Assembly (NCBI RefSeq): GCF_001281045.1
Contig: NZ_CP012622.1
Span: 992,001 to 1,056,000, forward strand
DNA: 64,000 bases
Origin: Spiroplasma cantharicola
GTDB taxonomy: Bacteria; Bacillota_I; Bacilli_A; Mycoplasmatales; Mycoplasmataceae
Direction: 5' to 3'
In this document: in pieces, positions 39,886 to 47,055 of the stretch
How positions within the stretch are numbered: the stretch's first letter is position 1
How the letters are laid out: every line of letters starts with the position of its first letter
Position numbers and translations under genes: made by a program
Notes under the pieces: model-generated
What the model was told of the DNA's origin: nothing
Seen by the model: only the letters and a program-made list of their open reading frames with translations
Database searches by the model: none

Positions 39886-39961
39886 TGGCAGGGGTAGCAG
39901 GACTTGAACCCACGACACTCGGATTTGAAGTCCGATGTTCTACCAACTGAACTATACCCCT
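39886..39961 (-). tRNA. tRNA-Trp (anticodon UCA), reads UGA
   Basis: The 76-nt cloverleaf is the same as the CCA gene except mainly for the anticodon (GGACTTCAAATCC gives UCA) and a fully paired acceptor stem (AGGGGTA / TACCCCT). CCA is encoded. It proves that UGA is a Trp codon in this organism. Confidence 0.96.
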
Positions 39962-42551: not shown

Positions 42552-42581
42552 AAAAAAAATACAACAATTTTGTTGTATTTT
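42552..42581 (-). terminator. Terminator of the E2-like gene
   Basis: A 12-bp inverted repeat (AAAATACAACAA / TTGTTGTATTTT) overlaps the stop codon and is followed on the minus strand by eight T residues. Confidence 0.85.
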
Positions 42582-45500
42582 AAGAAACTGTTAATATTTC
42601 TGGTTTTTCAAGTATTGATTTAACTTTTGCTAAGAAATTTCCGCTTTCTGCAGCATCAATTATTCTTTGATCAACTGTTAAACTCATATGCATGATTGCT
42701 TTTATAGCTAATTTTTCATTATCAACTACTACAGGCTTTTTAACAACCTTTCCTACTCCAATTACAGCTGCATTTGGATAGAAAATTGTTGGAGTTGCTT
42801 GAATCGCACCAACAGTTCCATAATTAGAAATTGTAATTGTGCTTCCCTCTGCTTCATAATTTAAAAGTTCTCCTGCACGAAGTCTTGATGTCATTTCTTT
42901 AATATCAATTGCAACTTCTTTTATCGATAATCTATCAACAAATTTTAATACAGGAATAATTAAACCTTCACTTGTTTCTGTGGCAAGTCCAATATTGTGA
43001 TATTTTTTAATAATTACCTCATTTGTTTCTGGGTCGTAACTTGAATTTAATCTTGGATATTCTTCAAGAGCAATTGAAATTGCTTTTGCTATAAATGAAA
43101 TAGTTGTAAATTTTATATGATTTTGAGTTTGTTTTAACATATGCTTTAATTTTAAAATTGAACTCATATCAATTTCTGTTGAAATTGTTAATGGTGGAAT
43201 AAAGTTTTGACTTAAAATCATTGATTTAACAGCTGAATTTCTATTTTGATTTATTTTTTCTCTTTCAATAACTTTGTTTTGATCATTAGATTCAAATTGC
43301 AAATAGCCAACTGAGTTATCTGGTTTATCCTTTTCAAAATTTATTTCTCTAATATTTTCTTTTTGTCTTTCCAACTTTTTAAAATCAATTTCTTCTTGTA
43401 TAAGTTGCTCCTCTTCAAGTCTTTCTCTTTCATATTTTTCTCTAAATTCTCTTTCAACTTTTGCAATAATTTCTTGTTCTAAAATTAATCTTTCTTGTTC
43501 CTTACGTCTTTCTGCTTCCAATTTTTGTTTCTCTGCTTCTTCTTTAATTTGCTTTTCCTTTAAATCATTTGCAAAAAGACTAATTTCTTCCTTGATAATT
43601 GACTTTAAATCACTTGCACTTATATCTCTATTTGTAATTTTATTTTGATTCATATTTTGCATCATATTTTGCATTAACATATACTGCATCATCTGACCGA
43701 ATGTATCTGGACCAGCATTAAAATTTGATTGTTGATTTAATTTTGAAGTTGCTGCATGTAACTGATTTTGCTCTTTTAAAGTTCTATGTAATTCTCTAAT
43801 TTCAGATTTTAAAAAATCCAATGTTTCATCAGCAATTTTTTTATCATATACTTTCACAAGTTCATCATCCTTTTTACTTATTTCTGTTTTTATTTCTCTT
43901 TGAACAACTTTGGGAGTTTTTTCAGGAATATCATCTTTTTCAAAATCAACTGTACTTGAATTTTCAAGAACAAGAGAATTATCAAATTCATCGTCGTTTG
44001 CATTAAACTCCTCAGTTTCCATTGTTCTTAAATTTTCATTTTCTGAAAGTTTTAAGTGAATTTTTTTATATATTCCTTGCTCTTTCTCTTGATCTACATC
44101 TTGGTTTTTCTTCTCATTCAAAGCCTGATTATTTTCCTGACCTTTAATTTGCAACTCTTGAGTTCTTTCAATATATCGCTTTTCTGCTTTATACGCTGAA
44201 TACAAATTTGTAGTTTTTAATCACTTTTCAAATTCAATTCTACCTTTTGGTGTCTCATTATATAATACATATGTTGTAGCTCCAGTTTCAGGGTCTTGAT
44301 GTAAAACTTCTCTTAAAAATTCTGCTGGTATTCCAATTTCTTTTATTTTTTTACTAAAACTTAAATTGCCCTCAAGTAAACCTTGTTCAACAGCTTCTCT
44401 TCTTTTTCTAATAGAAGTAGAACTATCATCATTTTTAATAACACTTCATCTTTTTCTTGTATCATGAAGTTTAGATAATTTTGCTTCTGCATAATTTCAA
44501 TTAGGTTTATAATTACTTTCCATTTTATTAAATTGATTTGAATTATCTTTACTCATTTTTGCCCCACTGAAATCAATTTCATTATTAGAATCTACTAATG
44601 CTGATTTTTCTTCTTTAAAATATGATTGATTTAATACATTATCTTGTTTATTAAGTGTCTGAGAATTATCTCTATTTTGATTTGTAATTTGAGAAGTTTG
44701 TTGTAATTGACTATTATTGTCATTCGAATGTTTATCTGGTCTGTCATTATTTTTAACTCTCTGATGGTCTAAAACAGCATTATTTTTGATAGCTATAATG
44801 TCTGATTCTAAAACTCTTGGATCTCCCCCTGCACTATTTAATTTTTCAATTCTTGCTTGAATAATATTTCTCATAATTAGTGGGCGACCTTTTTCATCAG
44901 TTTTTGACATTGCATTAATTTCAGCTGATGTATCTTTAAATTCTTTAAAGTTTTCCTCTTCAAGTAATTTTTCTTTTCTAGCTTGTACAAGTTGTCTAAA
45001 TTTACTCATTCCACTAACATTATCTGTTGACAATAAGTTTTTACCATCTTCTCTAACTACTTCTTCTGGGGTAATTTTTAATAATTCTTCTTTTGAAAAA
45101 TCTCCATTATAATTATTTTGAGGAGCATTTTTAATTGATTCTTTAATATTTGCTCTCATTTGAGCAAATTTATCCATTGATTGATTGTTTGATTCGCTCA
45201 TATTGTTTTTTTCCTCTTGACTCTCTTGTGTTTTAATTGAAGTACTTTTAAATTCTTCTTTGATATTATTATTATTATTATTTGCTACTGTTGATTTAGT
45301 ATTTTGATTAGATGATTCTTTTGTTATTTGCTGAGATATTAAATTTTTGTTAATATTACTTTCTTGCAAGTTTTGTTGCTTAGTTGTAGTTTCTTTATCA
45401 ATGATCTTAGAAACTTCAATTCTTTTAAAACTTTCTCCCTTATATTTTTTAATTTCTTCTTCTCCAATTACAATATTTGCCAAAATACTACCATTTTTAA

Positions 45501-45684
45501 TAGGACTACCTATTTTAATTGTTTTTGCAATAAGACCATTATAATTAGACTTTATCTTAACTTCTTTACCATCTTCTAGTTCAACCAGAGCAAAATCTTC
45601 ACCAAAAACAATTTCTTCTCCAGAAAATAATCATTTTTTTAAAATAGCTTTAGATTGTAAATTTCTAGCTCTTAGATGTACCAT
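42580..45684 (-). CDS. E2-like (2-oxoacid dehydrogenase acyltransferase fold) protein with altered active site and long charged insertion
   Basis: One open frame of 1034 residues, seen only with UGA = Trp. Residues ~1-80 resemble a lipoyl/biotinyl domain (GLIAKTIKIGSPIKNGSIL; candidate Lys40 in EDGKE, not the canonical DKA). Residues ~80-800 are polar and low-complexity with a Glu/Arg/Lys coiled-coil stretch (~720-790). Residues ~805-1034 match the E2 catalytic domain (LTISTEIDMSSI, ISNYGTVGAIQATP, NAAVIGVGKV). The active-site motif DHRxxDG reads DQRIIDA: catalytic His is Gln1006 and Gly is Ala1011. No E1 or E3 gene is adjacent. It is monocistronic; the start at 45682-45684 follows a G-rich AGGGGC site. 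Enzymatic loss and a scaffold role are inference. Confidence 0.8.
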
Positions 45685-45729
45685 AATATGACTGCCCCTT
45701 TAGTATTTTTATATACCACCTATTATTAT

Positions 45730-45761
45730 ATAAAAAATAAAGGCAAATTCCTACCTTTATT
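45730..45761 (-). terminator. Terminator of the Pr6Pr-like gene
   Basis: An 8-bp stem (AATAAAGG / CCTTTATT) is followed on the minus strand by a T-run, upstream of the E2-like gene. Confidence 0.8.
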
Positions 45762-47055
45762 AGTTAACATATTTAGTTTTAAATATTAATACTCCATTTT
45801 TTACAAGTTTTTTATAACGTTCTGCTTCTCTTAAATTATCTTTAACATAGGCTCTGTCTTTATAATTAATTGACAAAATTCATCTTTTAATTTGAATTTT
45901 ATTGTTTTTTTCAGCTAATTTACTATTTTTAATAGAGGCAATTTTTAACTTACGTTCGAGAAGTTTATTTTTAATATAATCTCTTTTTTTAGCTTTTCTT
46001 TCATTTTTCTCTAATACTTTAATTCCTTTTAAAAAGACTTTATATTCAGTTTTTTTGTGAATTAAATTCATTTTAGCTTGATTTTTAATAGTTACTTTTT
46101 TTAATTTCTGTTTTTGGATACGATATGCATGTTCTTCTCTAGTGATCAATTTTCCTTCAATATCATGTCATCTATAAAATTTACCATTATTTCATCTTAA
46201 ATAAATAAATTGTAAACCCACCACTATTAAAGTTATACATAAACAAGCAAATAAAAAAGTAGATATAACCAATCATTGTGGGCCAAAGCTTTCTCTAGCA
46301 ATAAACTTTTGCCCATCAACTGTATATGATAATTCATATTGGTGGATATTTAAAAATCAATATGGATATCACATTTGCTCAGTAAAGTGTCTTGTTTTAT
46401 CAATAACACCATTTTCAGGACTTCAAATGTTATTTCAAAAATAATCATAACCAGAAAATGCTGAGCTAATATTGCCACTTGGTGGACTATATATTCTTGA
46501 ATAAAATTCAGGCGAATAAAAATTATATCTTAATTCTCCTCTTATCATTGTAAAAATCAAATATCCTGTTGGATATAAACAATTCATTGGTAAAGAGAAT
46601 TTTGAATATTTTCTAGGAGAATAATACTGATCTCCACAAGAAAAAATAAAGTAACCAATCATAATACTTGGAATAAAGATATGTAGAACACTAGTAGAAA
46701 CTCAACTGGATGGATAATATGCACCCATTTCATCAACAGATGCAAGAAGTCCAAATCAAAAAACAATCATAGTTAAACTTATATATACTGTCATTGCTAA
46801 TTCTACTGAGAATGGCGGTTTTGTGTTATATATTTTTTTCATAAAAATTGCCATTGCTAAATAGAAAACTACAGCATAATTTGATTGAGTTGTAAAAAAT
46901 GAATAATATATATTTAATCTTTCTAAAGTAGGAATCCCTTCAAGATTCTTTTTAGGTGAATATATTTGTAAAACAAAATCGAACGCTAAAAAAGCAACTA
47001 AAACCATTAGTATCATTACTTTTAAAGAAAATTCAAAATCTTTATTAAATTTCAT
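45760..47055 (-). CDS. Pr6Pr-like membrane protein with basic cytoplasmic tail
   Basis: The 431-residue protein has about six membrane segments in its first ~290 residues and contains SFFTTQSNYAVV (residues ~51-62), the hallmark of Pr6Pr-family membrane proteins. An extracellular loop is rich in Tyr, Ser and Pro (YYSPRKYSKF, SRIYSPPSGN). The last ~140 residues are strongly basic and helical (KQKLKKVTIKNQAKM), so the tail should lie in the cytoplasm. Many UGA Trp codons break it under the standard code. Function is unknown; similar proteins are common and uncharacterised. It has its own terminator and no obvious operon partner. Confidence 0.75.

Follow-up and report, generated by a model that had tools for sequence, protein, structure and literature searches.

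The window analysed here is a stretch of 64,000 nt from the genome of Spiroplasma cantharicola (contig NZ_CP012622.1, positions 992,001 to 1,056,000), a complete genome of 1.18 Mb in which TGA is read as Trp. At positions 42580..45684 of this window, on the minus strand like its parts and the upstream membrane-protein gene given below, lies a gene that we call the class A pseudo-E2 gene. It consists of a single frame of 1034 codons with an ATG start, encodes a protein of 1034 aa and is open solely under genetic code 4, with four TGA codons read as Trp; its assignment rests on this frame and on the comparison of orthologues. A Shine-Dalgarno-like AAGGGG box (45695..45700) is located 10 bases ahead of the ATG and a TATAATAATA box at 45721-45730, both read by eye from the sequence; a mechanical promoter scan returned no enrichment. 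Directly past the stop codon, the sequence contains an AT-rich hairpin with a T-run (42552..42579), a likely terminator that the mechanical scan missed as its G+C content lies below the scan threshold. Owing to this likely terminator, the gene is taken as monocistronic, as an earlier note on this DNA had it.

Immediately upstream, neighbour comparison identified a membrane protein of the Pr6Pr family (431 aa, 45760..47055), and ackA and pta are found on the same side. Several congeners and genus g11 have the Pr6Pr-family gene at this upstream position too. Downstream, class A is neighboured by tRNA-His and by proteins without assignment. The statement of the earlier note that no E1 or E3 gene occurs nearby was borne out, the upstream genes being pta-ackA. 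The Pr6Pr-family protein carries a charged C-terminal tail and may be a partner of the class A protein. Elsewhere in the window, at 39886-39961, ARAGORN annotates a tRNA-SeC (UCA), which in a code-4 genome is a tRNA-Trp(UCA); it stands beside a tRNA-Trp(CCA).

Domain architecture of the class A protein

The assignment of the C-terminal ~230 residues to the E2 catalytic domain, made initially from the sequence, holds: residues 807-1031 (42592..43266) match Pfam 2-oxoacid_dh with E=4e-64, in agreement with fold and sequence matches. The nearest solved relative of this core is the E2p of G. stearothermophilus (1b5s; sequence E=1e-44, Foldseek E=8.5e-21); in fold, the predicted core agrees with this structure and with other E2 cores. 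Structures were predicted for monomers only. Folded alone, the core was predicted with moderate confidence (pTM 0.71), and a full-length prediction that used five sequences had a mean pLDDT of 42.9, with low confidence except for the lipoyl domain. The window protein falls below the NCBIfam cut-offs for full-length E2 equivalogs.

At the other end, residues 1-76 (45457..45684) are predicted to form a lipoyl/biotinyl barrel (pLDDT ~80; Z ~11 against lipoyl domains, rmsd 1.8 Å over 72 residues), which bears out the lipoyl-like N-terminus proposed before; the position of the lipoyl-Lys is taken by Gly39. Only one divergent orthologue (L065) yielded a Pfam Biotin_lipoyl match, with E=1e-7. Pfam gave no match to an E3/E1-binding (peripheral subunit-binding) domain in the window protein, where a diverged domain could escape detection.

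The two domains are separated by an insertion of ~730 residues, of which 35% are charged and 18% are Asn or Gln. Conserved blocks occur at residues 171-190, 227-292, 397-500 and 660-680; between them, the sequence is variable or predicted to form long helices. The second of these blocks, from here the FR...RN motif, comprises 66 residues (44809..45006) and was found to be specific to class A by alignment and by a motif model search. The block at residues 397-500 (44185..44496) is characterised in the orthologue alignment by YAE.KL..L.D, IP.EF and E.WL...NLY. A long helix is predicted at residues 591-652 (43729..43914), mostly with pLDDT values of 50-63, followed at approximately residues 660-680 (43645..43707) by a Met/Gln-rich helix, DTFGQMMQYMLMQNMMQNMN, which is supported by both alignment and structure prediction. 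Residues 690-783 (43336..43617) are highly charged, weakly conserved and predicted to form a long helix or coiled coil. The insertion had been described as low-complexity and coiled-coil-prone; the latter stands, and the former needs refining, as several conserved blocks are present. It is better described as a set of conserved motifs and coiled coils than as low-complexity filler.

Active-site and lipoyl-lysine positions

The active-site motif of E2 enzymes, DHRxxDG, reads DQRIIDA in the window protein (residues 1005-1011, 42652..42672), that is D1005-Q1006-R1007-I-I-D1010-A1011, as read from the sequence and aligned with orthologues. E2p of E. coli has the catalytic H603, the D602/R604 pair and D607 (PMC8421416); in these terms, class A has Gln in place of H603 and keeps the D602/R604 pair and D607. 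The substitution, pointed out in the earlier note, is confirmed throughout: in all recognisable class A cores, 28/28 in a first set and 10/10 in a later one, Gln replaces the catalytic His, and the cores examined cover 20/20 congeners and six further genera. Since this residue is conserved across orthologues and the frame is open, a sequencing error or frame break can be excluded. The canonical pdhC of each genome, unlike class A, retains DH[RK]xIDG. Two proteins from genus g11, the most diverged ones, read YDQR and YDRR at this site; they are devoid of the lipoyl part and keep the insertion motif.

The key His is always lost in recognisable class A cores, and the lipoyl-Lys site is lost in most. 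In the window protein the lipoyl fold is present and the modifiable Lys is absent; among the class A proteins examined, only those of genus g12 (G030, G215, G216) and of G203 have a Lys at this position, which we assigned residue by residue within a short loop. A third position was located from Thr323 of E2o, the Ser/Thr that stabilises the intermediate (PMC5986005): it is Ser in the window protein and Ala in most congeners. From these replacements we conclude that catalysis has probably been lost in the class A core. Some residual activity is conceivable because His substitutions in E2o leave 0.5-60% of the activity; in the E. coli enzyme, His-to-Asn retains 0.5% and His-to-Ala 2.1% (PMC5986005). 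Retention of Asp1010 and of the Asp/Arg pair, together with the Lys in g12 and G203, would likewise suit an acyltransferase that still works, with Gln for His and with altered chemistry or an altered substrate. We consider such an enzyme improbable: the window protein and the majority of its orthologues have no such Lys, the oxyanion position is Ala in most congeners, and several genomes lack an E1 partner.

Compared with the E2 components of 2-oxoacid dehydrogenase complexes, class A is alike in its N-terminal lipoyl domain and in the fold of its C-terminal core. It differs by the Gln for His, the Ala for the motif Gly and, in the window protein, the absent lipoyl Lys, as well as by the ~730-residue insertion, the lack of a detected subunit-binding domain and its independence of the PDH genes.

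Orthologues and selection

Class A orthologues were found in 19/19 other genomes of the genus, in genera g6, g7, g8, g9 and g12 and in family f9, with lengths from 670 to 1075 aa. Every helical, swimming Spiroplasma sampled has class A. In the E2 tree they form a monophyletic group (support 96/93). The dN/dS values of the core were 0.016-0.083 among close congeners and 0.08-0.11 in two wider pairs. They lie in the same range as those of the real E2, being below them in some pairs and above them in others. For the insertion, dN/dS was 0.13-0.31. The class A core is under strong purifying selection, and its dN/dS led us to reject a pseudogene reading of the window copy.

In the literature searched, no paper describing the class A protein was found, and no E2 protein is named in the main texts of the proteome papers on S. 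eriocheiris (colchicine), S. melliferum and S. poulsonii. The E2 of the S. mirum antigen paper was considered as a candidate and rejected, as its gene adjoins pdhB and E3 (SMM0327) and is canonical.

Class A and pyruvate dehydrogenase

The window genome contains a separate, intact pdhC (DHKVIDG), a point raised in the earlier note, at G000:C1:1104636; pdhB adjoins it, and E1 alpha is encoded in the vicinity. Most class A genomes also contain a canonical PDH. Nevertheless, class A does not track pyruvate dehydrogenase. Four genomes of the Citri group that are 97-99% complete (G206, G208, G209 and G212) have neither a canonical E2 nor a full-length E1; E1 alpha is absent in G206, G209 and G212 and present as a fragment in G208, which we take to be S. 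phoeniceum P40. All four encode an intact class A protein of 985-997 aa with the motif DQRIIDA and so retain class A without a full-length E1 and a canonical E2. They also retain a second, diverged E2 match, which we take as class B (see below). Retention of class A without canonical PDH is seen as well in G025 (85% complete). On the other side, canonical E2 is present and class A absent in genera g2, g3, g5 and g10. These are here called non-helical because, judged by their size, their gene content and general background, we presume them to be Mesoplasma/Entomoplasma-like lineages. In addition, we noticed that the E2 of G213 has two in-frame TAA codons in a genome without E1, and that the canonical pdhC of G008 (L015) clusters in the tree with the non-helical genera g5 and g2, which suggests a transfer of pdhC.

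That the conserved role of class A lies outside pyruvate dehydrogenase is supported most strongly by this double dissociation of class A and PDH; there is also no gene linkage to E1 or E3, as the earlier note had stated. A subunit with the same plan, a lipoyl domain plus an E2 core without catalysis, does exist in eukaryotic PDH, namely E3BP or protein X (PMC9681731), to which class A, judged by its sequence, appears alike as a non-catalytic E2-fold protein. By analogy, class A might be a non-catalytic subunit of the PDH core that modifies assembly or partner binding, and the presence of canonical PDH in most class A genomes would fit. We regard this as very unlikely and, as a conserved role, largely reject it, because class A persists intact in the four nearly complete genomes without PDH, whereas non-helical relatives with PDH have no class A. 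Moreover, class A differs from E3BP in its far longer insertion and in the lack of an E3/E1-binding domain detectable by Pfam, and it shows no linkage to pdh genes. A practical consequence is that E2-profile matches in PDH-less Spiroplasma genomes are no evidence for pyruvate dehydrogenase.

Distribution relative to MreB and fibril

The distribution of class A was determined by searching a model (A3) of the 66-residue FR...RN motif against 320 genomes of the order. The motif was matched in 45/320 genomes and MreB, at E<1e-100, in 46/320. Both occurred together in 44 genomes, hence class A accompanies the Spiroplasma MreB set in 44 of the 46 MreB-positive genomes and its motif is found in 1 of the 274 others, where it is broken (Fisher p ~1e-50, uncorrected for phylogeny, the genomes not being independent). 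MreB without class A was found in G045 and G061, which belong to distant families, G061 being just 75% complete. The single genome with the motif and without an MreB match at E<=1e-30 is G313, a 2.0 Mb genome of family f9. Its class A copies (L101, L102) are pseudogenes, two N-terminal fragments interrupted by stops or breaks of the frame. Few independent events lie behind the association: class A originated once, and it was lost in the non-helical genera, which the E2 tree places within the Spiroplasma lineages, and one or more times in f9.

Family f9 has no fibril, and class A is present in those f9 genomes that have MreB; the distribution of class A thus goes with MreB and not with fibril. 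In G014 (C1:424287-425812), the fibril gene is split in two frames, and class A and the MreBs are intact; this is in line with published accounts of helical species in which the fibril gene is disrupted (PMC7609405). A role as strict fibril partner was rejected on the basis of f9 and G014. As a separate observation, the gene that immediately follows fibril on its strand (L082:3080-3553) encodes a charged protein of 157 aa, which may be a fibril partner.

The genome G205, which we take as that of S. eriocheiris, encodes class A. The published Triton-insoluble fraction of this species comprises 16 proteins, including fibril and four MreBs (PMC5289999 Table 1), among which the class A protein is missing; Triton-soluble or low-abundance proteins would escape such a fraction. 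A Triton-soluble linker, a missed band or a role elsewhere in the cell would each explain the absence. The suggestion in the earlier note of contacts with the cytoskeleton gains support from a phylogenetic profile that follows MreB and not PDH, and the main observation against it is the S. eriocheiris list. The same absence would fit a Spiroplasma-specific scaffold unrelated to MreB that serves, for instance, cell division, the organisation of the chromosome or of the membrane, or a polar body, the match to MreB then reflecting shared lineage only. Many Spiroplasma-restricted genes would show a similar profile, and a conserved membrane protein adjoins class A. We think this rather doubtful, though clearly worth weighing, since f9 genomes with MreB and no fibril keep class A, those without MreB have lost it or hold decayed copies, and the non-helical branch has lost it as well.

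Possible role and relation to known systems

Because class A follows the MreB genes and not a metabolic pathway, it is probably a structural cell part and no longer an enzyme. On balance, we lean towards the view that it is a paralogue of the PDH E2 turned into a non-metabolic oligomeric scaffold that works as a multivalent hub in the architecture of the helical cell. The paralogue would have arisen once, in the lineage carrying the Spiroplasma MreB set. Its core may still trimerise or form a cage, and the N-terminal lipoyl fold could serve for binding. The FR...RN motif, the Met-rich helix and the coiled coils belong to the long insertion, which would project out from the core and tie together MreB filaments, the membrane or a polar structure, and the protein would thereby become a multivalent hub. 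The more specific version, a dead E2 trimer or cage in which each subunit bears a coiled-coil arm of ~730 residues and which arranges the MreB ribbon or the polar structure attached to it, is put forward tentatively as one possibility. Class A thus appears to be a non-catalytic E2-fold protein for which a cytoskeletal role is possible but unproven.

A precedent is fibril, likewise an enzyme turned into a strongly conserved, Spiroplasma-specific structural protein; it is derived from SAH nucleosidase and its conservation is far above that of the enzyme (PMC8432965). Fibril differs from class A in its nucleosidase fold, its absence in f9 and its split frame in G014. The parts list for Spiroplasma swimming is incomplete, as fibril and the MreBs are known and the dumbbell and connectors are not. 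Class A is a concrete candidate part: it follows MreB, outlasts the loss of PDH and, in lineages without MreB, has disappeared or decayed. It extends the theme of a Spiroplasma motility system built from metabolic enzymes. If the proposed role is true, class A would be the second metabolic enzyme, after fibril, recruited to the swimming machine.

A second pseudo-E2 paralogue of 542 aa, class B, is encoded outside the window at G000:C1:958205-959833 (L094:5205-6833). It occurs in most genomes that have class A: it was found in 20/20 congeners and in g7, g8, g9 and g12, weakly in g6, and not in f9 or g11. Class B resembles class A in having a lipoyl-like domain at its start, a coiled and charged linker and an E2-derived C-terminus without a catalytic motif. 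It differs in lacking the FR...RN motif and in an E2 part that has decayed almost beyond recognition, leaving a remnant that ends in NPG[FL]LI. Under the role proposed for class A, class B would be a third recruited enzyme and a possible partner.
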